A DNA stretch of 32,599 nucleotides from a virus. The stretch is taken from the IMG/VR virus record IMGVR_UViG_3300020186_000064, positions 1 through 32,599 of that record, one strand, 5' to 3'. Shown here in pieces: positions 520 to 32,599 of the stretch. A program made the translations under genes and the position numbers. Each line of letters opens with the position of its first letter. Within the stretch, counting starts at the first letter, position 1. Under the pieces are notes generated by a model. The model searched no databases. It was not told the DNA's origin and saw nothing but the letters and a program-made list of their open reading frames with translations.

Positions 520-1033
520 TTTGTTGTTGGAAGCAAGGGGCAGGATTGCATCCCGTGACAGATTTGACCTGCACACACTGACGGAGGTTGCAGAATTCTT
601 CGGACTTGACGAACACACAATCAGGACGTGGCGGCTGAAGACACCACCGATGCCGGGCGATCCTGGCAAGTGGCCGATCAGGCAGATAGTGCAATGGAGG
701 TGCAACTGGATTCAACAGAGCGACCTGGCATCAGCGAAGCGGCAACAGGATTTCGAACTGGGACAGATTCAGGTCGAGCAAAAGCGGCTGGAGTTGGATC
801 GTGACAAGCTGCTGAGCCTTGACAGAACCGACGTGGAGTTGTGGGCGAGCGTGGCACTAACAGAGCTGAAGGCCGGAGTCATGCAGTTGCCTGAGATGCT
901 GGCAGCAAGTGCTCCGGCGGAACTGAAATCATTTGTGCGTGAAGAATCAGACAGACATTGTCGCGACGTGCTCACAGCAACGTGCCGTCGGTTGGAGATG
1001 GCGGAACTCGGAAAGGTTACTGCTGCAGAATGA
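440..1033 (+). CDS. Probable terminase small subunit (Nu1-like)
   Basis: The 197-residue product has a helix-turn-helix near residues 47-66 (LTEVAEFFGLDEHTIRTWRL), of the kind used by Nu1-type small subunits to recognise packaging DNA. A long charged helix follows (about 85-130), probably for oligomerisation. The stop codon overlaps the start of the large terminase gene as ATGA, which fits the lambda Nu1-A pair. The given start is a TTG deep inside the preceding gene with a weak ribosome site. An AGGAGGAG at 495-502 hints that initiation could be further downstream, although no ideally spaced in-frame start follows it. The family call rests on motif and context. Confidence 0.7.
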   Translation: MSNSELHYLESSIESATSQEELQAASDLLLEARGRIASRDRFDLHTLTEVAEFFGLDEHTIRTWRLKTPPMPGDPGKWPIRQIVQWRCNWIQQSDLASAKRQQDFELGQIQVEQKRLELDRDKLLSLDRTDVELWASVALTELKAGVMQLPEMLAASAPAELKSFVREESDRHCRDVLTATCRRLEMAELGKVTAAE

Positions 1034-2916
1034 TAGCGTTGAAAGCTACCAGACTTTTGAAACCTCAGCCGCGAGTACATACCGCAGACTGGCTGCAGCG
1101 TCATGTCACGATGCCCAAGGGGACCGAAACAGGCGGACTGCCGTTCTCGCTGGCGTCGTTTCCGCATGTCAGCGGAGTGCTGGCGGCGTTCGATGATCGG
1201 TCAGTCCGGCGTGTGGTTTTGCAGTGGGGTACCCGCCTCGGCAAGACCACAAGTTGCCTGAGTCTGATGGCTATGGTTGCGGCGACTGAGCCTCGCAACA
1301 TGATGTTCGCGAGCCCCACGAAAGACGCAGCCGCACGGGTGATCGGGTCAAGGCTGTATCCGATTCTTCGAAACGCTGACGGCGTGCGGGAGCAACTGCC
1401 GCCCGAGGCACGGCAAAGCAAGTTGCACGTCAAAATGGAGACGTGCCAGATTTTCGTAGGCTGGTCGGGATCAGAGTCAAGCCTCGCCGACGTTGGAGCA
1501 TGGTTCGGGACTGCGTCGGAGATCGACAAGTGGGACGACTCGGCGTCAAACGAAGGCGACTCACTCAAACTGTTCGTGAATCGTTTCAAGGGGTTCCCGG
1601 ATCACAAGATCATTTTTGAATCGACACCAACAATCAAAGGACGCAGCCGAATTGAAAAGCTGATGAAAGAATCGAATCAGCATCGCCGCTACGTTCCGTG
1701 TCCGCACTGCGGGGAGTTTCAGACACTGAGAAAAGGTGACGAGTATTCGCCAGGAGGATTCCGGTGGGACCGTGATGACCACGGAAATTCATCTGCCGAA
1801 ATTGCATTCCGCACAGCGTACTACGAGTGCGAGAAGTGCATCGGGAAAATCGAAAATCATCATCGCGTCCAGATGCTGCGGCGTGGCGTGTGGTGTCCGG
1901 ACGGATGCACTGTTTCAGTCAGCGGAGAGATCACGGGGACAGCAACAAAGTCGGGATCTGACACGGTCGGATTTGGCCCGCTGGCATCTTGGTACGCACT
2001 TACCGAGACGTGGGGGAGCTTTGCTCGCGCGTGGATCCAGGCGCAGAAGAGGCCGCGTGATCTGCAAGATGTCGTCAACGGGTACATGGGCGAGACGTGG
2101 GAAATCAAGCGCACGAAGAGCACTCCGGAAAAAGTCGGCGAACGACTATCGACAACGACGCGGCGCGGAACTGTTCCGGACTTTGGTCGCTTCCTCACGG
2201 TGACTGTCGACCGGCAGGCGGCAGACGGCGGCTTCGTGAAATGGGTTGTTCTCGCGCATGGGGAAAGCGATCAGGCCGCAGTGGTCGATTACGGGATGTC
2301 AATCACACTTGAGTCGATCTGGGATATCGTGATTCGAGCAACGTATCCGCACGCCGACGGCGGGAACGGACTGGTTCCGGTTGCTGCCGCAGTTGACTCA
2401 GGTTGGGATACAAAAAACACATACGACTTTTGTAACACTCACCCCGGAATGTTGGCCTGCAAAGGGTCATCGACTGACCTGCAAGGCCAGCCGTATAAGC
2501 TCGCCACTGTTGGCGAAAGTCGACACTCTTCTGACGGACAATTGCTGTTTCACGTCAACACGGATTTTTGGGAAACCGATCTGCAGTCGAGGCTTGAAGA
2601 CAAGTTGCCCGGAGAACCGGGAGCGCTGACCCTTCCGGCGGGCGCACAGCATGACATTGATTTTCTGTGCGAGATGTGCAACTCGACACTCACTGACAAG
2701 ATCGACGGGCGAGGGAATGCGCGGATGACTTGGGTGAAGAGTGACGAAAATGCACCGAACGACTTTCGCGATGCCGTGCGGTATGGACTGGCGCTGGGAA
2801 GAGCGTGGATTGAAGAGCGGGGCGGAATGCCGAATCGTAGCGAAATCGCGACAGCCACGAAGGCCGTCACATACTCAGGAGATCGAAGACCCGATGGACG
2901 AACATGGACAGAATAG
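1030..2916 (+). CDS. Terminase large subunit, GpA family
   Basis: This 628-residue protein is the ATP-driven packaging motor and the nuclease that cuts concatemeric DNA. The ATPase Walker A variant is WGTRLGKTT (residues 66-74). An acidic segment, EIDKWDD (about 164-170), occupies the Walker B position, and FESTPT (about 196-201) fits the coupling motif. A zinc-binding pair of the GpA type is visible: CPHC at 224-227 and CEKC at 267-270. The C-terminal nuclease has acidic residues in TVDRQAADGG (D394) and AAVDSGWD (D456, D460). I chose the ATG that overlaps the small subunit stop (ATGA) rather than the TTG at 958. Length is typical for GpA proteins. Confidence 0.95.
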   Translation: MIALKATRLLKPQPRVHTADWLQRHVTMPKGTETGGLPFSLASFPHVSGVLAAFDDRSVRRVVLQWGTRLGKTTSCLSLMAMVAATEPRNMMFASPTKDAAARVIGSRLYPILRNADGVREQLPPEARQSKLHVKMETCQIFVGWSGSESSLADVGAWFGTASEIDKWDDSASNEGDSLKLFVNRFKGFPDHKIIFESTPTIKGRSRIEKLMKESNQHRRYVPCPHCGEFQTLRKGDEYSPGGFRWDRDDHGNSSAEIAFRTAYYECEKCIGKIENHHRVQMLRRGVWCPDGCTVSVSGEITGTATKSGSDTVGFGPLASWYALTETWGSFARAWIQAQKRPRDLQDVVNGYMGETWEIKRTKSTPEKVGERLSTTTRRGTVPDFGRFLTVTVDRQAADGGFVKWVVLAHGESDQAAVVDYGMSITLESIWDIVIRATYPHADGGNGLVPVAAAVDSGWDTKNTYDFCNTHPGMLACKGSSTDLQGQPYKLATVGESRHSSDGQLLFHVNTDFWETDLQSRLEDKLPGEPGALTLPAGAQHDIDFLCEMCNSTLTDKIDGRGNARMTWVKSDENAPNDFRDAVRYGLALGRAWIEERGGMPNRSEIATATKAVTYSGDRRPDGRTWTE

Positions 2917-11906: not shown

Positions 11907-12794
11907 ATGGCGACATTCGTAGCGGCTGACATTATTCTGGGTGCGACAACGATTCGCGGCGTGACAAGCACGAACCCTCGATCCGGAAACGAGCATGTGA
12001 AACGGACGCCATCGGGAGGCGCAATTGTCGATCATGTGAGCGGAACAAAGTCGGAGCAGGTTACGGCGTTTACGTCAACTGACGTGGGCGTGTTGGCAGC
12101 ACTTGGAACGAACACGTTTTCCTCGGTCGGGCTGTCTCTCACGTCGTCCACGATTACGGTTCCGGTTAAGTCTCGTGCAAGTGGCGGGCTGTTTGCAAGC
12201 GGGTCAAACCACTGTGCGATCACTGGTGCAGCAGCGTTGACAATTCCAATTTCCTACGAGGTCTCGCAAGAGTCTGAGGCCGCGACATGCCAAGCGGAAA
12301 TTCATTGGATTTCGTCCAACGGAACAACGGCGGGGGCGACTGGCAGCGCCGGCAACGCTTTGGCCTCGCAGGCGTTTAGCTTCGAATACGGGCTCGGTCC
12401 AGCTTATATCAACGGAACGCTGATTGTGGGCGTGCAGTCGTTCAAGGTGACACCTGGCATCCGGCTCGTCAAGCACTGGTCTCAAGGGCTTGTACGACCA
12501 ACGATCATCAGTATTCAAGCCGTCGAACCGACGATTGAAATTGTGACTCAGGACATTGACGCAGTTATTGCGGCGTTCGGCGTGTTTACCGCAATGACAT
12601 CAGCAAACGTCTATATGCGACGGCGAGCTGATGCGGGCGTGTACTCAGCAACCGTGCTGGAAAACATCCGGTTTACGTTCGCTGGTGGCCTGACAGATAC
12701 CAGCTTTGAAGTCTCGGACAACAATAACGGGACAGCAACAATCACGCTGCACGGCAAGACGCTGACAAGCTCTTCGGCTGTAACAATTCCATAA
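11907..12794 (+). CDS. Major tail (tube) protein candidate
   Basis: This 295-residue protein is Thr/Ser/Val/Ile-rich with strong beta-strand alternation, as expected for a V-like tail tube protein. A central segment (AFSFEYGLGPAYINGTLIVGVQSFKVTPGI split across residues 148-178) and a late strand region ending in ATITLHGKTL fit the tube fold. It precedes the tape measure by two genes, the normal place for the tube gene. The start is seven bases past the preceding stop. No enzyme motif is present. Confidence 0.7.
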   Translation: MATFVAADIILGATTIRGVTSTNPRSGNEHVKRTPSGGAIVDHVSGTKSEQVTAFTSTDVGVLAALGTNTFSSVGLSLTSSTITVPVKSRASGGLFASGSNHCAITGAAALTIPISYEVSQESEAATCQAEIHWISSNGTTAGATGSAGNALASQAFSFEYGLGPAYINGTLIVGVQSFKVTPGIRLVKHWSQGLVRPTIISIQAVEPTIEIVTQDIDAVIAAFGVFTAMTSANVYMRRRADAGVYSATVLENIRFTFAGGLTDTSFEVSDNNNGTATITLHGKTLTSSSAVTIP

Positions 12795-12806
12795 GGTTTA
12801 GAAAAC

Positions 12807-13172
12807 ATGGCATCGGAAATCACGCTCAACACGCGCCTGCAACTGGCCAACGGCCAACTTGGAAAAGACGTTAACCCTGGCCGTATCCAGATCAACCAAA
12901 CAACGCAACTGGCGTTTGATTCGGTGCGCACGATTACAACTGGAGAGGTTACGGTTGCGCTAACCGGGCTGAGCACCCCTCACGTCGTGATGTTGTACAA
13001 TTTAGACGCGACGAATTACGTGCAGGCAGGCGTCGCGACGACGGTTTATCCGTTTCGCTTGTATCCGGCGTCGATTCCGTCAATCTTTGAAATCAACACC
13101 ACGTACACAACTTTGTACCTTGCGGCAAACGCTGCCTCGTGCAAGGTGTGGATTATTGCATTTGAACTCTGA
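12807..13172 (+). CDS. Small beta-rich tail-region protein
   Basis: The 121-residue product is beta-rich and hydrophobic at its C-terminus (LYLAANAASCKVWIIAFEL). I do not recognise it. It starts 12 bases after the tube gene and is followed, in the same reading frame, by the next gene with only six sense codons between the TGA stop and the GTG start. It occupies the slot where siphophages usually keep the first tail assembly chaperone, but its composition is not chaperone-like. A minor structural role is equally possible. Confidence 0.65.
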   Translation: MASEITLNTRLQLANGQLGKDVNPGRIQINQTTQLAFDSVRTITTGEVTVALTGLSTPHVVMLYNLDATNYVQAGVATTVYPFRLYPASIPSIFEINTTYTTLYLAANAASCKVWIIAFEL

Positions 13173-13190
13173 AAACATGGGGTTTCGCCT

Positions 13191-13868
13191 GTGCATTTTC
13201 TGGCATTTATTCCCGACATCAAACCGGCTGACCTTGAAAGTGCAGCAAAGGTTGCGGGGCTGACAGACCTGATCAGTGACAGCACACAGGATGTCGCGGC
13301 AAACGCGAACGGGCCGAACCAGTTGACAGGCGTCATGCTCGGATGGCTGTCGCCGACGAATCCGCACATTCACTTCGACGCTGCAAAGCAAACATGGCTC
13401 CCGTCGATTGTAAAGGATGACGCCGGCAAGCCGCGATACTGGATCGGGATCTGGACGGCATCAGTTCCGCATGAAAGCGAGATGCGCCGGGCATACACTC
13501 AGGACGGAACGCGGACAAGGCTGGGTGAGCAAACGTGGAAGCTCCCGACGCCGAGCACAGTCGACTCACGGGCCGTCTACAACGATGATGGCTCGATGCG
13601 CTGGGAAGTGATTCGCAAGTTCTCGTGGGTGTGCGACGAAGCTAAGTCGATGACAGCGGTCTATTTGGAAAACTTCGGTCTGCGAAACATGCTGTTTGCA
13701 GTCGATCCCGGCGAGCAGGTGGAATGGCTGTTGAAGCTGCTGCGAATCAATTATCGCATGACTCCCGAAGTCGCCGCGTACCTCGACCTGTGGGTCGGAA
13801 AGAAAAACGTCATTGACGTAGTGCTTTCAACGCTCGGTCTTTTCCGCAAGACGGAGGTGGAGTCGTGA
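13191..13868 (+). CDS. Tail assembly region protein (chaperone candidate)
   Basis: The 225-residue protein lies directly upstream of the tape measure gene, where tail assembly chaperones (lambda G and GT) lie. Its C-terminal half is helical (VEWLLKLLRINYR, then YLDLWVGKKNVIDVVLSTL), which would suit such a role. GTG is the likely start with GGGG (13179-13182) eight bases upstream. Its stop overlaps the tape measure start as GTGA. I see no slippery heptamer typical of programmed frameshifting before it. Function is inferred from position only. Confidence 0.6.
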   Translation: MHFLAFIPDIKPADLESAAKVAGLTDLISDSTQDVAANANGPNQLTGVMLGWLSPTNPHIHFDAAKQTWLPSIVKDDAGKPRYWIGIWTASVPHESEMRRAYTQDGTRTRLGEQTWKLPTPSTVDSRAVYNDDGSMRWEVIRKFSWVCDEAKSMTAVYLENFGLRNMLFAVDPGEQVEWLLKLLRINYRMTPEVAAYLDLWVGKKNVIDVVLSTLGLFRKTEVES

Positions 13869-15526
13869 CTGAGAAGATTGCAGTTGAATGGATTGCTACA
13901 GCCGCATCAATGACGCTCGCGCTGGACAAGGTGACGGCCAGGCTTGAACGACAGGAAAAACTGCTGGAGATGACCGGCGATACAGCTCTCAAGTCAAACA
14001 ACCTTGCGATCGGTTCTTTTGCACGATTGGAGCGCGAACTGAAGCAGAACGAGGCGGCACTAAAACGGATGGTGGTGGGTACGGCGGAATTTGATGCGCA
14101 GCGCAAGAAAGTCGACGCGTTAAAAACCGCTGTCGCGGGTGCGAAGCGAGAACTAAACGTACCTATCATTTCCTCATGGGGTGAAATTGCAACGTCGATG
14201 GGCGGTGCGACAACAACGGCAACAGCGTTGTTCCGCGCGCTGCAAAACGTAGCCGCAGCACAACGGCAGACAGTTTCCGAAGCGGCCGACCAGATTGTTG
14301 CAATTGACACGCTTGCGCGCAAGATGCAGATTCAAGCGGGGCTGACTGATCCGGAAACGAAAGCAGCAACACAGACCATCATTGATCAGTCATCTGACGC
14401 GGGACTGAAAGCGGAAGTAGGGTTCAAGGCCGCAACGCAGCTTGCCGGTTCGGGGTTCCAGGATCCAGTCGGGTCCGGCACCTTGAAGACAGTTCTCGAC
14501 ACAATTCAGGCAACCAGTTTTCAGGGCTCCCCCGAACAATTAGTCTCGGCTCTCACGGAGGCATTGAACGCCTACGGAATCCCGAAGACAAACGAAAACC
14601 TGAAGAGTTTGGCTGTGGCCGCTCAGGGCGTGTTCAAGCAGACAGATTTTCAGTTGACCGAACTGCAGGATTTCGCGAAGTCCGCTTCTGTATTTGAGTC
14701 GGCTGGCATGTCTCTGAATCAGGCGCTGGCGGGGTTCACGACGCTTCGTGAAGTGCTGCCAGCTGAACAGGCCGGTACTGGTATGCGGAACTTTGTGAAC
14801 ATCCTGAAGACCGCAGGCGGAGATAAGTCGAATACCAAGTCTTTGAACAGCATGGGGCTCAAGCCTGATCAGGTTGATTTCGTGGGGGAAAGTCTCGATC
14901 AGGTTCTGCAAACTCTCAAAGGTGCTATCGGCAACATGGACAAGGCGGAACGCCAGATCGCACTCGGCAACCTGTTCGGGCGAGAAAATATCGCCTCGGC
15001 GGAACTGTTGATTGCACGTCAGGACCGTGTTGGCGAGCTGGAGAAGCTCCAGAATAACCCGGCGCAGTTTGAGACTGATCTTGGTGTTGCAGCCGGGGGG
15101 ATGCAGGCCGAACGTAATCGGATTGAAAATCAGCGCTCGATTGACGCGATGAAAAACAGCGATGCAATGCTTGAGCTTGACACGAGTCAAAGACGGCGAG
15201 ACAACGAAGACAAGACCTTCGTGGAAAGTGCTACAGTGTCAGGTGTTCCGTTCGCCGGAGCCTCGGCGCAGTTGGCAACCGGAACGATTAGAAGTGTAGA
15301 CGCTGTTGCGGGTGCTCCTGTACTACGCGACACGTCAGTAGGGCTGGCCTCCGTTTTTAGCAGCCTGTTTGGAGCACAGAAACAGACGAACGCATTGTTG
15401 GAACGGCAAAACGAAATTCTGGCCGCACAAGCGGCATCTCCGGCTCCTGTTCAAATGCCAGTCAGGATCCAGGCACCAGCCGCACGACCGAAGGAATCTG
15501 CTTTGCCTGCAGTCACAGCGCCTTGA
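13865..15526 (+). CDS. Tape measure protein (TP901 core type)
   Basis: The 553-residue product sets tail length. An N-terminal coiled coil (about residues 20-95) is followed by a TP901-like core, recognisable by AGMSLNQALAGFTTLREVLP and the nearby GTGMRNFVNILK segment (about 275-320). A second coiled region lies at about 400-445. The C-terminal tail is Ala/Pro-rich with a Gln/Asn-rich coiled stretch (LLERQNEILAAQ). At roughly 1.5 angstrom per residue, the tail would be near 80 nm, short for a siphovirus. It starts with GTG overlapping the previous stop. Confidence 0.88.
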   Translation: MTEKIAVEWIATAASMTLALDKVTARLERQEKLLEMTGDTALKSNNLAIGSFARLERELKQNEAALKRMVVGTAEFDAQRKKVDALKTAVAGAKRELNVPIISSWGEIATSMGGATTTATALFRALQNVAAAQRQTVSEAADQIVAIDTLARKMQIQAGLTDPETKAATQTIIDQSSDAGLKAEVGFKAATQLAGSGFQDPVGSGTLKTVLDTIQATSFQGSPEQLVSALTEALNAYGIPKTNENLKSLAVAAQGVFKQTDFQLTELQDFAKSASVFESAGMSLNQALAGFTTLREVLPAEQAGTGMRNFVNILKTAGGDKSNTKSLNSMGLKPDQVDFVGESLDQVLQTLKGAIGNMDKAERQIALGNLFGRENIASAELLIARQDRVGELEKLQNNPAQFETDLGVAAGGMQAERNRIENQRSIDAMKNSDAMLELDTSQRRRDNEDKTFVESATVSGVPFAGASAQLATGTIRSVDAVAGAPVLRDTSVGLASVFSSLFGAQKQTNALLERQNEILAAQAASPAPVQMPVRIQAPAARPKESALPAVTAP

Positions 15527-15550
15527 TTTGGTTTTTGTAAGCGGAATAAC

Positions 15551-15949
15551 ATGGCGACTCTCACAATCGGTGTAAGGGATTTTGGAACGCATCTGTTCGG
15601 GACAATCAAAGCCCCGGCATTCGAGTTCTCGCGCGTGGCTCAAACATTTTTCGGAGTCGTCGGCGAACAAAACCTGTACGGAAAAGCTCACTTTCGCTAT
15701 TTGACATGCCCACTGCAACTGACAGGATACGCGACACACCTTACGTTGCAACAGGGTGTGGCAACGATGGCACTGTGGATGGGAACGACTGGAACGCTGA
15801 CATACAACCTTGGAGGCGGTGACAGCACGCCATTCACGCAGTGCATCTTCGAGGGATTCGAACCTGAGGAAGAGCCCTGGAAAGACGGCTCGGGTGTGAA
15901 TGGATGGAATCAACGAGGCACTCTCAAATTCAGACAGGTGGCATCATGA
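15551..15949 (+). CDS. Minor tail protein, distal-tail candidate
   Basis: This 132-residue beta-rich protein follows the tape measure gene. It has aromatic and glycine-rich strands (FEFSRVAQTFFGVVG, MALWMGTTGTLTYNLGGG). I do not recognise a named family, but proteins in this slot often form the distal tail ring. The stop overlaps the next small gene as ATGA, so it belongs to the tail operon. Confidence 0.6.
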   Translation: MATLTIGVRDFGTHLFGTIKAPAFEFSRVAQTFFGVVGEQNLYGKAHFRYLTCPLQLTGYATHLTLQQGVATMALWMGTTGTLTYNLGGGDSTPFTQCIFEGFEPEEEPWKDGSGVNGWNQRGTLKFRQVAS

Positions 15950-16131
15950 ATGAAGACATGGACAAAAGCTGGAAACCAGATCCGGAAACCGGGCTCCCGA
16001 CTCTCGACCAGCATCGGGAAGAAGTCCAGAAAACAATGACGCAAACGGGATTTGCATTGCCAGTCCCGAAGCCAGAGTCACTGCCCGTCGAAGTGCCTCA
16101 AGTCGCGATCGTGGATGAGCTTGACGAATGA
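15946..16131 (+). CDS. Small acidic, proline-rich tail-region protein
   Basis: The 61-residue product is acidic and proline-rich (PDPETGLPTLDQH; VPKPESLPVEVPQV), probably disordered. It starts at the ATG overlapping the preceding stop and ends overlapping the start of the large tail-tip gene, so it is tightly coupled at both ends. A role as a small assembly factor for its neighbours is possible but unsupported. Confidence 0.65.
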   Translation: MNEDMDKSWKPDPETGLPTLDQHREEVQKTMTQTGFALPVPKPESLPVEVPQVAIVDELDE

Positions 16132-18104
16132 CCACGGATGCGATCAACACCGCCGGGGCACTGGTATATGTTTACCCCGAGTTCCTGACGGCGCTCGGGC
16201 CTGCGGGCGGTGCTCCACCTGGCGAAGCTCAGACGTTCGACAACTGCTATGCCTCGACTGTCGTGCAGTCGGCTGGCGGCTCTCGCATGGACTATGCGGA
16301 GCTGCGGTACGCTCTCGCGGATTACCTTGTCGATCGTGATCAGCCGTCGTCATTCAAAAGAATGGTGGCGGTCTATCTGCAGGACGGGTCAAAAACGCGC
16401 CTTCATCTCGGCGACTACGTCAAGGAATCCGTGAAGGTCGAACAGGGCGGCGATTCCCTGACCGCTCAGAGTCAGTTGCGCAGTTATCACTTTGGGACTC
16501 CGGTAACGTACTACGATGTTCGCGACGCACTGCATTCCAGACTCACAGCGGCTGCGACAATCGTTGACGACATTGTGTTCAATCCGACGGTCGATGACCG
16601 CACGCTGTTCAATATGTCGTCGGAAACACGAGTAGGCCTTAGTGGGCGATTATGGACGCACCCGGAAATCGCCTTTACTCCAGACGGAATTGCGTATCAG
16701 GGACAATCGAGGGTTGAATGGACGCTGCAACGTGCGATCCAATCGCTGTGCGAACTGCTCAACCCGGAAGAGTTCATCCGCAATCCAACGTACGCTGAGA
16801 TTCTCGAAGCAATTCCTGTAAGCGGCGTGATTGAGATTCGCGACGTGCGGATTCCGCTCGGCACTCGGCTTCCGCAAGCGCTGGACATGCTGCTGATTCC
16901 GCTCGGGTACAATTGGTTTACGGACTATGCGACAGGGACAGCAAATCCGAAAATCAAGTTGTTCAAAATCGGGGTCGGGGAAGAGAAAACTCTGTTCTTG
17001 CAAACGCCTGGCGAGCTGTTGAATCTTGAATGGTCGAACGTAAATCAGTTGTCAGTGTCGAACGAGATCGGCGACAGTTTTAATCAGGTTCGGGCGCTCG
17101 GCGACTTTGAGGAAATCGAGTTCACGCTGCCGCTTTATCCGCGATGGGCGCAATCGGATGACCAGCTAACTGCTGACAGTCTGGACAAAGACTCGCTTTT
17201 GTTTTCTGGAAAAGAAACGGTGAGGAGACTGTGGGTCGCAAACGAAGCTGGCGATATTAGGTCTCCAGATATCCGCAATCGTGCTACGCAGTACACTGAG
17301 GACGTCCCGAATCTGTTCCCGTTTTTTGTTGGTGAATACCTTCCGCATCGCCGCACGATTGGTGAACCGATAACGTACATGGGCGGTGCCGACAGTCTTC
17401 AACGACGCCCGCATTTTCTGGAATACTCTATCAATTTAGGAACGGAATGGCTGGCCGCTCCTGACGACTGGTCAGTGAAGCTGTGTCCGGATCAAATCGG
17501 AGTATACTTTGACGGCAAGGGTCCGCCTGCAGAACTGCTAAGCGCTGGAACAAGCGGATGTCTTAGAATAACTGGAACGGTCAGGGGTGACAGCCGCGTC
17601 GAAGGACTTGCAACAAAGCAGTCATACGCGGTCAACGGTCGCACGATTGAGCAAGTGCTGGTTGTTCCGGACAAGTTTCAAAAACGCTCGCGGCAAGCAA
17701 CCGGGATCTACAAAAGTGTGTTTGCGGCGGAGACCGCAAACGGTGCGGACGAACGCGACGACACGACAAAGATTCTTGCGTATGCTGAAGCTATTCGAAA
17801 CCAGAACCATCATGCTGAGGTGGACTGCGAATTCCGGTTGCCCGGACATCACCTCAGTTATCAGATCGGGGATCTGATTTCCAAGATTGAAGGTCGTGAA
17901 ATCAACCTAAACGCTGCGGCAGCAGGCGCTCCGTCCAACAGGTTCCCGCAGATTGTTGAGCGGCGTTTTGAAATGTCCGAATCCGGGCCGTTCACAGTTT
18001 TGATTGTGGATCGTGGCATTGACCCGTCGATTGCCGAACAGCTCGCGCTGACGGGCGAAGTACAGCAGGCGGCGAGGGTCGCGACACGCAGGGCAAAGCC
18101 ATGA
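16128..18104 (+). CDS. Large tail tip/baseplate hub-like protein
   Basis: The 658-residue product has a mixed alpha/beta composition and is in the position of tail hub or tail-tip proteins, after the tape measure and distal-tail genes. Blocks such as VYLQDGSKTRLHLGDYVKES (about residues 82-101), a central helical segment around the RAIQSLCELLNPEEF stretch (about 203-217) and a beta-rich end with LPGHHLSYQIGDLISKI suggest a hub with several domains. There is no peptidase or lysozyme motif. ATGA overlaps link it to both neighbours. Confidence 0.65.
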   Translation: MTTDAINTAGALVYVYPEFLTALGPAGGAPPGEAQTFDNCYASTVVQSAGGSRMDYAELRYALADYLVDRDQPSSFKRMVAVYLQDGSKTRLHLGDYVKESVKVEQGGDSLTAQSQLRSYHFGTPVTYYDVRDALHSRLTAAATIVDDIVFNPTVDDRTLFNMSSETRVGLSGRLWTHPEIAFTPDGIAYQGQSRVEWTLQRAIQSLCELLNPEEFIRNPTYAEILEAIPVSGVIEIRDVRIPLGTRLPQALDMLLIPLGYNWFTDYATGTANPKIKLFKIGVGEEKTLFLQTPGELLNLEWSNVNQLSVSNEIGDSFNQVRALGDFEEIEFTLPLYPRWAQSDDQLTADSLDKDSLLFSGKETVRRLWVANEAGDIRSPDIRNRATQYTEDVPNLFPFFVGEYLPHRRTIGEPITYMGGADSLQRRPHFLEYSINLGTEWLAAPDDWSVKLCPDQIGVYFDGKGPPAELLSAGTSGCLRITGTVRGDSRVEGLATKQSYAVNGRTIEQVLVVPDKFQKRSRQATGIYKSVFAAETANGADERDDTTKILAYAEAIRNQNHHAEVDCEFRLPGHHLSYQIGDLISKIEGREINLNAAAAGAPSNRFPQIVERRFEMSESGPFTVLIVDRGIDPSIAEQLALTGEVQQAARVATRRAKP

Positions 18105-21433: not shown

Positions 21434-21622
21434 ATGTTGGTTTTGAGCAGAAAACAATCAGAGTTGGTCGTGATTCGCGTGCCTCCTTCAAGCGAAACGC
21501 AGGAAATCAAAGTACTGGTCACTGAGATTTGCGGCGACGTCGCACTGATGGGCTTTGACGCCCCGCGGGCAGTGACGATTCATCGTGAAGAGGTGCAGGA
21601 ACGCATCGATCAGGAGCAGTAA
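21434..21622 (+). CDS. csrA: CsrA-family RNA-binding translational regulator
   Basis: This 62-residue protein is a clear CsrA homologue. CsrA dimers bind GGA motifs near ribosome sites and block or stabilise messages. Hallmarks are present: the MLVLSRK start (L4, R6) and the DAPRAVTIHREEV strand with R51. The loop between the first two strands is longer than in E. coli (PPSSETQ). GGGAG precedes the ATG. The upstream gap has two GGGATTTG repeats (about 21380 and 21394) and the GGGAG itself, so autoregulation through GGA binding is possible. A phage-borne copy probably rewires host or phage translation. Confidence 0.93.
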   Translation: MLVLSRKQSELVVIRVPPSSETQEIKVLVTEICGDVALMGFDAPRAVTIHREEVQERIDQEQ

Positions 21623-29452: not shown

Positions 29453-30133
29453 ATGATTTCAAGGCGCAACACACTGAAAACCATCGCAGCCGCGTTCATG
29501 GCTCCTACGATTCAGCTTCGCCAGTCGGTTTCCGATGAGCGATTGATGATGGCATTTTGCGAGCCAGACAGGGGTCGATACAGGCTTCAATACGAGTTTG
29601 AGAAGCCGTTCGGGTTCGGGTCATTGACTTATGCCAGCGATTACAAAGCGTTGATTCGATGCGAACTTGCGGGCCGGATCGAAGACGGAGAGAAAAGGCT
29701 CCCGCCAATCGCTGAAACATGGGATCGATACTGGATGCCACAAACGCAATGGCGTCCGCTGACTCCGGACGATCTCAGACCAACGGAAGCCTGCGATGGC
29801 AATTTCGGGTTCTGTCCGGAATGCGGTGATCGGCGGGTTTCAGCGGAATATCCAAAGGATGCTGCTGAGGCGGCTTCTTTGCCGGACTGGGACGTGGACG
29901 ACAACACGATACGAGACGTCTCGTGCCCGCGATGTCACGGCCGCTGGTACGGCGGGCCATCCAATGTTCGCATTTGCGGCGTGCTTCATTCGTCCTGGAA
30001 TCTTCGGCGAATTGTAGCTTTGCCGAATCCGCAGGTGTGCAAGTCGCTTTGGCTGGATCCGAAGTCAGATGCCAACGTCATTCTGTTTCGCGCGGATGGA
30101 TTCGAGGGAATGTCGATGGGGATGGCTGAGTAA
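29453..30133 (+). CDS. Zinc-ribbon protein with Tat-like N-terminus
   Basis: The 226-residue product begins ISRRNTLKTIAAAFMAP, which matches a twin-arginine signal (SRRxxLK plus a hydrophobic stretch). The central region has CPECG (about residue 122) and CPRCHG (about 161), a zinc ribbon. The mix of export signal and zinc ribbon is unusual for a phage-coded protein. The stop TAA is part of the first TAAC element (30131). Function unknown. Confidence 0.7.
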   Translation: MISRRNTLKTIAAAFMAPTIQLRQSVSDERLMMAFCEPDRGRYRLQYEFEKPFGFGSLTYASDYKALIRCELAGRIEDGEKRLPPIAETWDRYWMPQTQWRPLTPDDLRPTEACDGNFGFCPECGDRRVSAEYPKDAAEAASLPDWDVDDNTIRDVSCPRCHGRWYGGPSNVRICGVLHSSWNLRRIVALPNPQVCKSLWLDPKSDANVILFRADGFEGMSMGMAE

Positions 30134-30162
30134 CGCTTTGCATCACGTGGATGCGGAGAGCC
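30131..30162. repeat. TAAC element A (short class)
   Basis: It begins with TAAC, whose TAA is the stop of the preceding gene, then ATCACGTGG at position 12 and GGAGAG. It matches the left arm of the attC-like elements below but lacks the right arm and GTT box. Confidence 0.6.
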
Positions 30163-30195
30163 TTAAACCAGCGAAATGATGACTTGAGGTGCCCG

Positions 30196-30438
30196 ATGAT
30201 TGAGTGTCCGAAATGCAAAGAGGAACATGAACCAACAGGGATTCACGAAGACGATTCTGGAGAGATGGAATGCGAGTCGTGCGGATTCGCGTTCGTCGTC
30301 TACATCGAATACGACCCGAGCTATGAGATATCGTGTGTGGTACACCAGTTTGGAGAAATGCAAACTATCAGCGGGACGGACGCGCAGTTCTGCGTCAACT
30401 GCGGCAAGTGCAGGCTTGCAATCGAGGCGTCCGCATAA
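30196..30438 (+). CDS. Small double zinc-ribbon protein
   Basis: The 80-residue product carries CPKCK, CESCG and a C-terminal CVNCGKC. These cysteine pairs suggest one or two zinc ribbons. I start it at the ATG giving MIECPKC; an upstream in-frame ATG (30151) lies inside element A. TAA is also the start of element B. Its function is unknown; binding of nucleic acid or protein is plausible. Confidence 0.7.
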   Translation: MIECPKCKEEHEPTGIHEDDSGEMECESCGFAFVVYIEYDPSYEISCVVHQFGEMQTISGTDAQFCVNCGKCRLAIEASA

Positions 30439-30524
30439 CTTTCAAGATCACCCGGCAGCGGCGAGTGATGTCCAATTTCGAACGAACGCCCCACCGCTGC
30501 TCGGCGTGGATCTTGTTGTTAGTG
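30433..30524. repeat. attC-like element B (full inverted repeat)
   Basis: Left box GCATAAC (30433-30439) contains the stop of the preceding gene; right end has GTTGTTAGTG (30515-30524). The arms pair well: CAAGATCACC-CGG-CAGCGG on the left against CAAGATCCACGCCGAGCAGCGG-type complement on the right, with an unpaired A. Such imperfect stems with extrahelical bases typify integron attC sites. Confidence 0.65.
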
Positions 30525-30535
30525 CGAGTACGTCA

Positions 30536-30751
30536 ATGATGATTTGCGACCTATGCGAAGTGAAAACGCGAGCCATGTCACGTGATATTCCTTTTGCGGA
30601 ATTTCCGTCGGACATGTGCGACGAACATTGGAAGGAATTTCAGGAAGCGATCAAGCTGGCGACGAGCATCTTTCGCGGGTCGGCGATCACGGAAAAGGAC
30701 TGGGCGTCGTTTAAAAGTCGATTGATGGCGTCGCGAAATGTGAAGCACTAA
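30536..30751 (+). CDS. Small zinc-binding protein of the cassette array
   Basis: The 71-residue product starts MMICDLCEVKTR and has a second pair in MCDEH, a possible Cys/His zinc site. The rest is helical (KEFQEAIKLATSIF). Its ATG is 12 bases after the attC-like element B. The stop TAA opens element C. Unknown family. Confidence 0.6.
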   Translation: MMICDLCEVKTRAMSRDIPFAEFPSDMCDEHWKEFQEAIKLATSIFRGSAITEKDWASFKSRLMASRNVKH

Positions 30752-30780
30752 CGCAAAAGGTTAACCGGGTTGCCGGGAGA
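30749..30780. repeat. TAAC element C (short class)
   Basis: Starts with the stop TAA of the preceding gene. It has GTTAACCGG at position 12 and GGGAGAGG. Next gene start is 41 bases from the T of TAAC, exactly as in element H, suggesting a repeated junction unit. Confidence 0.6.
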
Positions 30781-30789
30781 GGATTACCA

Positions 30790-30960
30790 ATGAGTGAAAA
30801 CGAAACCACGGCGACTCCGGTTGAACCGCTTGTTGTGCCTGCCTTAACTCCGCTGCAGGAGTGCATGAAAGAACTGTGTACGGCGATCAACAAAGTTCAG
30901 GACTGGGAAGGGACTAGGGTTGGAGCTGCGTTAGAGAAAGCGGAAGCCTTGCTAACTTGA
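30790..30960 (+). CDS. Very small helical protein of the cassette array
   Basis: The 56-residue ORF runs from the ATG at 30790 to TGA at 30958-30960. It has a Pro-rich start (PVEPLVVPALTPL) and an amphipathic helix (ECMKELCTAINKV). An AGAGGAT precedes the start. It lies in a predicted two-gene cassette with 30536-30751. Unlike its neighbours it has only two cysteines (CMKELC). Confidence 0.5.
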   Translation: MSENETTATPVEPLVVPALTPLQECMKELCTAINKVQDWEGTRVGAALEKAEALLT

Positions 30961-30971
30961 TTAAGGCTGAC

Positions 30972-31023
30972 ACCTAACGCTTGCGGTAACCGGAACCGCT
31001 TTCGGTTCACCGCTTTGTTATTG
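30972..31023. repeat. attC-like element D (full, 52 bases)
   Basis: ACCTAAC (30972-30978) matches the RYYYAAC box of attC exactly. GTTATTG (31017-31023) is the right box, roughly GTTRRRY. Inner arms are GCGGT/ACCGC and GAACC/GGTTC, with unpaired spacers between, a near-textbook attC layout. Confidence 0.7.
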
Positions 31024-31037
31024 TGAGGAGGTAGGGT

Positions 31038-31253
31038 GTGACACAGATGTTATTGTTCAGCGAGCAGGTGCCAAAAAAAATGGAGCCGGTGTTCGTGTGT
31101 CCGTGTGGGTACACGTCACCTGTGTGCTGGTTTTCGCCGGACGAACCGCCGTTGTTGACTCTGGAGGACGATGACGACACCGTATGGTGCAGGGGCTGCT
31201 GCAGTGAGCTGCGACGCGTGCAAGTGACAGTGTTCTATGGTGAGTCAAACTAA
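31038..31253 (+). CDS. Small zinc-ribbon protein of the cassette array
   Basis: The 71-residue product carries CPCGYTSPVC and CRGCC, a probable zinc ribbon, and an acidic middle (LEDDDDTVW). GTG start with AGGAGG six bases upstream (31026-31031). It begins 21 bases after the predicted cassette boundary in element D. The TAA stop opens element E. Confidence 0.7.
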   Translation: MTQMLLFSEQVPKKMEPVFVCPCGYTSPVCWFSPDEPPLLTLEDDDDTVWCRGCCSELRRVQVTVFYGESN

Positions 31254-31341
31254 CGACCAAAATCACATGGCCGGGCGGCGAGTGACCGCCCAACCAAACC
31301 GAGAGACGCTGCCGCCGCTCCGGTTCAATGTTGTGTTATGC
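31248..31341. repeat. attC-like element E (full, 94 bases)
   Basis: Left box AACTAAC (31248-31254) includes the preceding stop. Right box GTTATGC (31335-31341). Arms pair CCGG-GCGGCG with CGCCGC-T-CCGG, leaving one extra base. The first 20 bases after TAA are almost identical to element F. Confidence 0.7.
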
Positions 31342-31361
31342 GGCGATTGGGGAATACTAGG

Positions 31362-31619
31362 ATGGACGAAATCACTACTGCCAAAATAAGGTTGCTGCCG
31401 TGTGCTAAAAATGTTTGCCAAGAGTGCGCGGTCGATCACCAACCAGACGAAGCACACAACGCACAGTCGTTGTATTACCAGTACAAATTTTACGGAAAGC
31501 ATGGTCGATGGCCCACGTGGCATGATGCGATTTCGCACTGCGACGCGGAAAGCCAAGCGCTTTGGAAAGAGGAATTGACGCGAATGGGTCACTGGTCGGA
31601 ACCAGTTCCGTCCGCATAA
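31362..31619 (+). CDS. Small protein of the cassette array
   Basis: The 85-residue product has C-x5-C-x2-C (about residues 14-22) and an aromatic, polar C-terminal half (YYQYKFYGKHGRWPTW). An alternative ATG lies at 31338 inside GTTATGC. I prefer 31362. Unknown function; the stop TAA opens element F. Confidence 0.65.
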   Translation: MDEITTAKIRLLPCAKNVCQECAVDHQPDEAHNAQSLYYQYKFYGKHGRWPTWHDAISHCDAESQALWKEELTRMGHWSEPVPSA

Positions 31620-31703
31620 CGACCAAAATCACATGGCCGCGACGAGCTGCGGGCCATGTGTGACGACTTCACTTCGCGGCTCTGGTGGATTGTGTTGTTG
31701 GAT
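31614..31703. repeat. attC-like element F (full, 90 bases)
   Basis: Left box GCATAAC (31614-31620) with the preceding stop. Right box GTTGGAT (31697-31703), an exact GTTRRRY match. Arms pair AATC-AC-GCCGCGA on the left against TTCGCGGCTCTGGTGGATT on the right, with bulges. An inner hairpin CACATGGCC/GGGCCATGTG is also present. Confidence 0.7.
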
Positions 31704-31717
31704 TGCGAGGGTGTTAT

Positions 31718-31942
31718 ATGGGATCAAAGAAGCCACCAGCTGAGCCACGTCCTGCGAACGTACCGACAAGCCCTCCTCCTCCGCGACAGGCGAAGTATGC
31801 GGGAATCTGCATGTGGGTTTGGAGCGAGGGGTATTATGAGTCCACATGTGGAAACTCGTTTTACTTTGACGCTGGTGGAAGACCAGAGGAACACAAATTC
31901 ACGTTTTGTCCGTACTGCGGAAAACATCTGAGTAGCAAATAA
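31718..31942 (+). CDS. Small Cys-rich protein of the cassette array
   Basis: The 74-residue product has a basic Pro-rich start (KKPPAEPRPANVPTSPPPP), then CMWVW, a later C and CPYCGKH, a possible zinc ribbon. ATG lies 20 bases after the predicted boundary in element F, with GAGGG upstream. TAA stop opens element G. Confidence 0.7.
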   Translation: MGSKKPPAEPRPANVPTSPPPPRQAKYAGICMWVWSEGYYESTCGNSFYFDAGGRPEEHKFTFCPYCGKHLSSK

Positions 31943-32038
31943 CTTCAGCGTTAACCCGGGCCGGAGCGAGCCCGTGTTCAAATTCAAACCAGCGTGTTCG
32001 ACGGCTCCGCGTTGAACGCTTTTTTAGGTGCGTTATGC
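31937..32038. repeat. attC-like element G (full, 102 bases)
   Basis: Left box AAATAAC (31937-31943) with the preceding stop; right box GTTATGC (32032-32038), whose ATG is the start of the next gene. Arms pair AGCGTT-AAC-C-CGG-GCCG with CGGCTCCGCGTTGAACGCT, with bulged bases. Confidence 0.7.
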
Positions 32039-32475
32039 CGACCACTAATTGCGAAAAAAAAGCGCGTGAAAAGGCTAGAGCGTTACATCGCGTCTGGAGG
32101 TCGTTGAATGATGGTGCTTGTCCCAGCTGCCACAAGTTCCACCAGGCCACACAGATCCTGCGGACAAAAAACATCATCGCGTGCCCGTCGTGCTCGTTCT
32201 CTGTGACGATGTTGGAGATTGCAAAGATTGAAAAACTGTTCGCACCAGAGATGAACGCGGCACTGAACATTTTTTTGCAGTGGCGGCGTGAACAGTCACA
32301 GGCTTGCGAATACTGTGATAAGCATTTGGTGTTGCGCGAAATTTGCCAGTGCCGTACGCGTTGCGATACGTGCGGATACTGGCTAACAGGCCAGAAGGAC
32401 GATTCCTCGACTCGTTGCCGGTGGTGTGTCACCAGCGGAGAGCCTGGGCCGCCAGGTGTTGCTGAGTCAAAATAA
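32035..32475 (+). CDS. Multi-zinc-ribbon protein of the cassette array
   Basis: The 146-residue product has many Cys pairs: CPSCH, CPSCS, CEYCD, CQCRTRCDTCG and CRWC, forming perhaps three zinc sites. N-terminal helix is basic (KKAREKARALHRVW). The ATG overlaps the GTTATGC box of element G. Likely a nucleic-acid-binding protein, but the target is unknown. Confidence 0.75.
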   Translation: MPTTNCEKKAREKARALHRVWRSLNDGACPSCHKFHQATQILRTKNIIACPSCSFSVTMLEIAKIEKLFAPEMNAALNIFLQWRREQSQACEYCDKHLVLREICQCRTRCDTCGYWLTGQKDDSSTRCRWCVTSGEPGPPGVAESK

Positions 32476-32504
32476 CGCTTCAGATCACTTGGCACGAACG
32501 AGAG
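32473..32504. repeat. TAAC element H (short class)
   Basis: Begins with the stop TAA of the preceding gene, then ATCACTTGG at position 12 and GAGAG. The next ATG is 41 bases from its T, as in element C. Confidence 0.6.
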
Positions 32505-32513
32505 AACTAACCA

Positions 32514-32599
32514 ATGAAAACCGACGAGGCTGAGTGCTCTAGTGGATCTGATTGTTCGTCACACGCGTGGCAATCGGAGGATAAAGAACCAACAGTGCG
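32514..32599 (+). CDS. Next cassette-array gene, truncated by the window end
   Basis: The visible 28 residues start MKTDEAECSSGSDCSS and run off the window. The ATG follows GAGAGAACTAACC, the same junction as at element C. Family cannot be judged. Confidence 0.5.
   Translation, partial: MKTDEAECSSGSDCSSHAWQSEDKEPTV

Follow-up and report, generated by a model that had tools for sequence, protein, structure and literature searches.

The question raised by this locus is whether the inverted repeats that separate a row of tiny genes at the end of a virus record are integron attC sites, and if so, how the genes between them could be expressed and exchanged. Integrons are bacterial gene-capture devices. 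The window examined here is the whole virus record IMGVR_UViG_3300020186_000064, 32,599 bases long, in which a primase gene is followed by a few small genes and then by tiny plus-strand genes parted by inverted repeats. The first-pass annotation had described these repeats as part of an integron-like cassette array, and they were seen in the sequence at the place where it had put them. The gene content includes:

958-2916, plus strand: GpA-type large terminase, a phage hallmark (phrog_15, E = 5e-111; PF05876)

Also encoded are a portal, a capsid/protease, a Sak4-like annealing protein, SSB, a helicase and a primase. With its terminase, portal and capsid genes, the window represents a tailed phage, probably of a planctomycete host. 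Neither a tyrosine recombinase (Phage_integrase) nor an integration site was found in the 32.6-kb record. The array reaches the end of the contig, and anything to the right of position 32599 is missing. No viral relatives were found for the protein encoded at 29453-30133. It was also noted that a small protein at 21434-21622 (MLVLSRKQSELVVIRV...) resembles CsrA and that a similar open reading frame is located near a prophage-like region at another locus (L012).

A generic scan for AAC...GTT stems on both strands of the whole 32.6 kb placed its five best plus-strand matches within 30.4-32.0 kb, and a stricter grammar that required two extrahelical bases 6 bp apart gave its three highest ranks in the window to the elements here called C, G, and H. 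Stretches of 20 kb surrounding true integron integrases (TIGR02249; found in 69 of 392 Planctomycetota genomes) were scanned with the same grammar, which identified site clusters adjacent to the integrase, with a polarity that nearly always pointed away from it. A search pattern derived from the window elements and one planctomycete attC matched 55 viral contigs, many of which contained 4 to 10 sites of the same polarity spaced 300-400 bp apart. Exact-pattern scans with one half of a window attC (TAACGACCAAAATCACATGGC and one variant) gave no match in viral or genome contigs, because attC sites are too variable for exact patterns.

We then used a covariance model (Infernal) built from 38 attC sites of other viral contigs, with the window excluded. 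A covariance search had been proposed in the first-pass annotation, and it recovered exactly 7 attC sites in the window, each of them on the minus strand and within 30433-32560, with E-values from 9e-15 to 7e-4 (cmsearch) and no further match up to E = 10:

30433-30524, minus strand: attC B, R' box GTTATGC on the minus strand (54.2 bits, E = 1.2e-11)
30746-30838, minus strand: attC C (50.1 bits, E = 1.2e-10)
30972-31023, minus strand: attC D, short (52 nt), R' box GTTAGGT (40.8 bits, E = 2.9e-8)
31248-31341, minus strand: attC E, the weakest site (23.5 bits, E = 7e-4)
31614-31703, minus strand: attC F, R'' box ATCCAAC, which fits RYYYAAC (43.2 bits, E = 7e-9)
31937-32038, minus strand: attC G, model match 31937-32029 (44.8 bits, E = 2.7e-9)
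32470-32560, minus strand: attC H (66.3 bits, E = 9.3e-15)

Eight related elements had been proposed, of which B, D, E, F, and G were described as having the attC layout. All 5 were matched by the model and C and H proved to be attC sites as well, their second halves lying within reading frames previously taken as the next gene, whereas element A (30131) is no attC. The AAC...GTT boxes are present in all 7 sites, the full RYYYAAC or GTTRRRY consensus only in some, and 6 of the 7 have kept their pairing, boxes, and extrahelical bases. The elements are folded stems, conserved in structure and variable in sequence, and 2 extrahelical bases in one arm give them their polarity. In attC G a long spacer precedes the R'' box, and in attC E the two halves pair poorly. 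The left 23 nt of attC E (31248-31270) and attC F (31614-31636) are identical while the rest differs, and attC E may be a hybrid produced by recombination between two attC sites. The array corresponds to a CALIN (at least 2 attC sites and no integrase nearby), although in a record that is itself a fragment; it is not a complete integron, no intI being present, as the first-pass annotation had also found, in the 32.6-kb record, which ends at 32599.

It might be argued that the elements resemble attC sites by chance and are no more than ordinary terminators or regulatory hairpins, since they sit between small co-directional genes and since short hairpins that are not attC occupy this place in a related phage (G427). 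We regard this as extremely improbable. The covariance matches, down to E = 9e-15, have an integron-specific layout, the same model also detects attC arrays next to true IntI genes on planctomycete chromosomes, and shuffled contigs gave runs of at most 1 site, as compared to up to 10 in the real contigs. In the alignment of the 38 phage attC sites, changes on both sides were observed at 17 of the 18 stem pairs, and 93.8% of the cells were paired, compared to 31% to 41% when the partner was slid, a value that is inflated because the training sites had been picked beforehand by a pairing rule. This selection does not account for the variety of the compensatory changes or for the fixed unpaired columns. 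Terminators were ruled out because pairing has been kept by compensatory changes while the AAC/GTT boxes and the extrahelical positions are fixed.

The choice of attC strand is set by the extrahelical bases. On the plus strand, these are located in the right arm of each window element, and the canonical attC strand is therefore the minus strand, with the G^TT cut at the left end of the element, where it reads TAA^C on the plus strand and G^TT on the minus strand; for attC B it falls between 30438 and 30439. This polarity is the opposite of that assumed in the first-pass annotation, and its cassettes of 499, 318, 362, and 335 bp are therefore shifted. With the cuts at the left ends, the predicted cassettes are 313, 226, 276, 366, 323, and 533 bp long:

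30196-30438, plus strand: flank gene A, with its stop codon TAA supplied by the R' box of attC B
30439-30751, plus strand: cassette 1, attC B and gene 30536-30751 for a CxxC protein, the stop codon TAA ending at the cut
30752-30977, plus strand: cassette 2, attC C and gene 30790-30960
30978-31253, plus strand: cassette 3, attC D and gene 31038-31253 for a CxxC protein
31254-31619, plus strand: cassette 4, attC E and gene 31362-31619 for a conserved phage/prophage protein family
31620-31942, plus strand: cassette 5, attC F and gene 31718-31942 for a CxxC protein
31943-32475, plus strand: cassette 6, attC G and gene 32035-32475 with several CxxC motifs
32476-32599, plus strand: start of cassette 7, attC H and a gene from 32514 that is cut by the contig end

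Upstream of flank gene A the covariance model found no attC. Of the 7 complete genes, 6 (A, B, D, E, F, and G) have a stop codon that ends precisely where the cut is predicted. The attC C site contains the plus-strand Shine-Dalgarno sequence and the ATG codon (30790) of its cassette gene and encodes the N-terminus MSENETTATPVEPLVV, and attC H contains the ATG codon (32514) of the gene that runs off the contig. The genes had been called zinc-ribbon genes; CxxC motifs are indeed present, but all Pfam zinc-ribbon matches were below the cut-off.

In a canonical cassette the gene follows the attC polarity and the attC site comes after the stop codon, whereas the genes in the window run in the opposite direction. 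Mechanical calls of reading frames from the window alone scored 2 cassettes as inverted, 3 as ambiguous, and 1 as having the same direction; coding on the plus strand is also suggested by the homologs of the cassette 4 protein, the CxxC motifs, and the placement of the stop codons. The cassette 4 protein (CQECAV..H.P..SLYYQYKFY...GRWPTW.DA..HC; loci L004-L018) belongs to a small conserved family that is widespread in phages and in prophage-like regions of many phyla. No attC sites were seen around its homologs in the loci examined, nor by the covariance model in the viral ones, and the family is therefore not bound to cassettes.

To compare phages with hosts, the same covariance model was applied to 24 phage contigs, including the window, and to planctomycete chromosomal integrons. 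Genes opposed the attC polarity in 75 phage cassettes and followed it in 12 (27 were ambiguous and 6 had no gene), whereas 3 host chromosomal cassettes had opposing and 51 following genes (Fisher p = 5e-23, cassettes within one contig not being independent). The median cassette length was 353 bp in the phages and 551 bp in the hosts. A Shine-Dalgarno sequence and an ATG codon on the gene strand were identified within 44 of the 146 phage attC sites, as against 2 of the 146 on the opposite strand and 1 of 89 host sites. The far arm of such a phage attC therefore encodes shared N-termini, which read ...TAPVxxLVM, ...HLGSSDCSS, or ...SCASPCSP depending on the frame; genes C (MSENETTATPVEPLVV) and H (MKTDEAECSSGSDCSS) of the window match 2 of these frames.

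To study exchange, related phages were compared cassette by cassette at the predicted G^TT points, a check suggested in the first-pass annotation, and swaps of whole cassettes were found. A 379-bp cassette was 99.2% identical between 2 loci from different metagenomes (L131 and L095), and a 331-bp cassette was 94.9% identical between L084 and L095. In both pairs the identity has its edges at G^TT, and the flanks, compared over 600 bp, show no similarity. The records behind L084 and L095 (G399 and G405) encode a portal, a capsid/protease, and a terminase. Near-identical cassettes in unlike neighborhoods point to recent exchange. The cassettes of the window itself were not recovered from any other array, and exchange was seen only in other phages.

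A phage (G436) with a large terminase 43% identical to that of the window, and another structural protein 51% identical, contains 5 attC sites at 33470-35236, of minus polarity and with plus-strand genes, and with phage genes on both sides; no integrase was found in the region of its array. The corresponding place in related phages holds different cassettes. In G427, which is equally related to the window, tiny genes with short non-attC hairpins are located at the like position. Since attC sites are present in G436 and absent from G427, this place is an accessory gene region in which attC sites are optional. The nearest terminase relatives of the window with short contigs had no attC in the sequence available. 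At the position of the window's cassettes, another virus record (L001, IMGVR_UViG_3300002835_000412, 12262-17640) contained some 15 tiny genes, with a short conserved element (taACAGCGG...CCGnTAG) behind each one, and no attC.

Strong matches to the covariance model came from 24 of the 294 Planctomycetota genomes searched, frequently with many in a single genome, and from 2 of the 299 genomes searched in the phylum of a Rhodospirillales MAG, and a planctomycete host is likely. The sedentary integrons of Planctomycetota share with the window the attC type of about 90 nt with 2 extrahelical bases, and the best host matches to the phage model reached 72 to 77 bits. They differ from the phage arrays in having longer cassettes, genes along the attC polarity, and starts outside the attC. 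One planctomycete chromosomal integron (L357, G013:C8:42000-61900) had about 30 attC sites by intI in canonical gene orientation.

The shared attC type, along with the position of the array at the contig end, is what would be expected if part of a chromosomal integron of the host had been joined to a prophage or misassembled. We consider such an origin very unlikely, as the array of G436 is flanked on both sides by phage genes, the cassette-exchanging G399 and G405 carry portal, capsid, and terminase genes, genes in host integrons are oriented the other way, and the window lacks an integration site and a tyrosine recombinase. Somewhat less improbable, but still unlikely, is that the sites are decayed relics, now mere spacers with start and stop signals in which recombination has ended. 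The lack of an integrase in the window, the poor hybrid site E, the short site D, and the existence of half sites like A would agree with decay, whereas the preserved pairing, boxes, and extrahelical bases in 6 of the 7 sites, the compensatory changes across the phage attC sites, and the signs of recent cassette exchange argue against it. The first-pass annotation had named 3 results that would speak against an integron-like array, namely no attC in a covariance search, a constant gene order without exchange in related genomes, and ordinary terminators; all 3 tests were run, and none gave such a result. We consider it very likely that the phage carries an exchangeable CALIN of cassettes with inverted genes, served by an integrase that is supplied in trans or encoded in genome sequence absent from the record.

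Integron integrases were identified in other viral contigs. One phage (G409) encodes a primase, terminase, portal, capsid, and tape measure protein together with an IntI of 398.8 bits (cut-off 265), the best PDB match of which was IntI4 (E = 5e-83). Here, 2 attC sites with inverted CxxC genes are followed by the IntI gene and directly thereafter by the terminase gene. A GpA terminase was located at or near the integrase in about 20 of the 80 best IntI-like viral loci, and in several of these the reading frames overlap; the integrase gene abuts or overlaps the large terminase gene in L227 (5980-8870), L235 (1991-4869), L239 (1217-3936), and L143 (10085-13035). The coupling may be functional. 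The viral IntI did not form a single clade in a tree in which all hosts were planctomycetes, and no origin is therefore claimed. In the viral contig G432 (the L102 record, 14754-15530), an integron integrase was matched weakly (107 and 59 bits), and one attC-like site was noted.

In the mechanism that we propose, an integron integrase supplied in trans by the host or a co-infecting phage, or encoded in the missing genome part, would fold the recombinogenic attC strand and cut at G^TT of the R' box, whereby single cassettes would be gained, lost, or swapped; we rate supply in trans as equally likely as an integrase of the phage's own. Each cassette would consist of one attC followed by one tiny gene on the strand opposite to that of normal integron cassettes, and all of them would be covered by a rightward transcript of the phage itself. 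Because translation would start inside or right beside the attC and the R' box would form the stop codon TAA, any cassette could be read in any position. Probably, though with less confidence than for the array itself, these phages represent a phage-specific integron class, in which inverted cassettes have the attC 5' of the gene as ribosome binding site, start, and N-terminal tag and the R' box as stop, in which some members keep an integrase between the array and the terminase, and by which phages of planctomycetes and others trade tiny proteins with putative accessory roles, cassette by cassette. If so, many uncultured phages would run their own version of an integron and exchange small accessory genes singly, in a modular format of site, start, gene, and stop through which a cassette could be expressed wherever it is placed. 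The attC would have a second job in translation, it would be clear where some of the tiny phage orphan genes come from, and a directly testable mechanism for exchange between phages and host integrons would be provided.

Cassette arrays were thought in the first-pass annotation to be not commonly described in phages, but 17 CALINs in phages had already been reported (Qi et al. 2023, PMC9892861), and 5 of the 6 phage attC sites assayed in that study were used by IntI1. Like the window, these CALINs have small cassettes in an attC array and lack an integrase. Planctomycetes are not mentioned there, and a terminase is mentioned once, flanking a CALIN. In phage TJE1 of the same study the genes follow the attC polarity, whereas those of the window are inverted; the window's attC sites carry start signals, and its array type occurs in many uncultured phages. 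In P12002L, no convincing attC was found by the covariance model, which is tuned to the 90-nt type. The complete integrons of the temperate phages Vibrio p16/p42, Shewanella M16-3, and a P1 derivative are described as captured host or class 1 integrons (PMC9892861). As in the IntI-bearing phages described here, their IntI is on the phage record, but the viral IntI of this study differ in being located between array and terminase, with overlapping frames, and in viral clades of the tree. Inverted phage cassettes, starts within attC sites, and a terminase-coupled integron integrase were not reported in the literature searched (preprints and subscription journals lay outside it), and the inverted, attC-initiated architecture and the terminase-linked integrase appear to be new. 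An integron-type integrase, annotated only as xerD/integrase-like, is likewise located beside an array of small genes in virus Rctr41k (KX853513), although its attC-like sites are 3' of the integrase and in the same direction as the genes. In this virus (KX853513.1, 4680-10101; L342), the attC-like sites are about 130 nt long and in canonical orientation.
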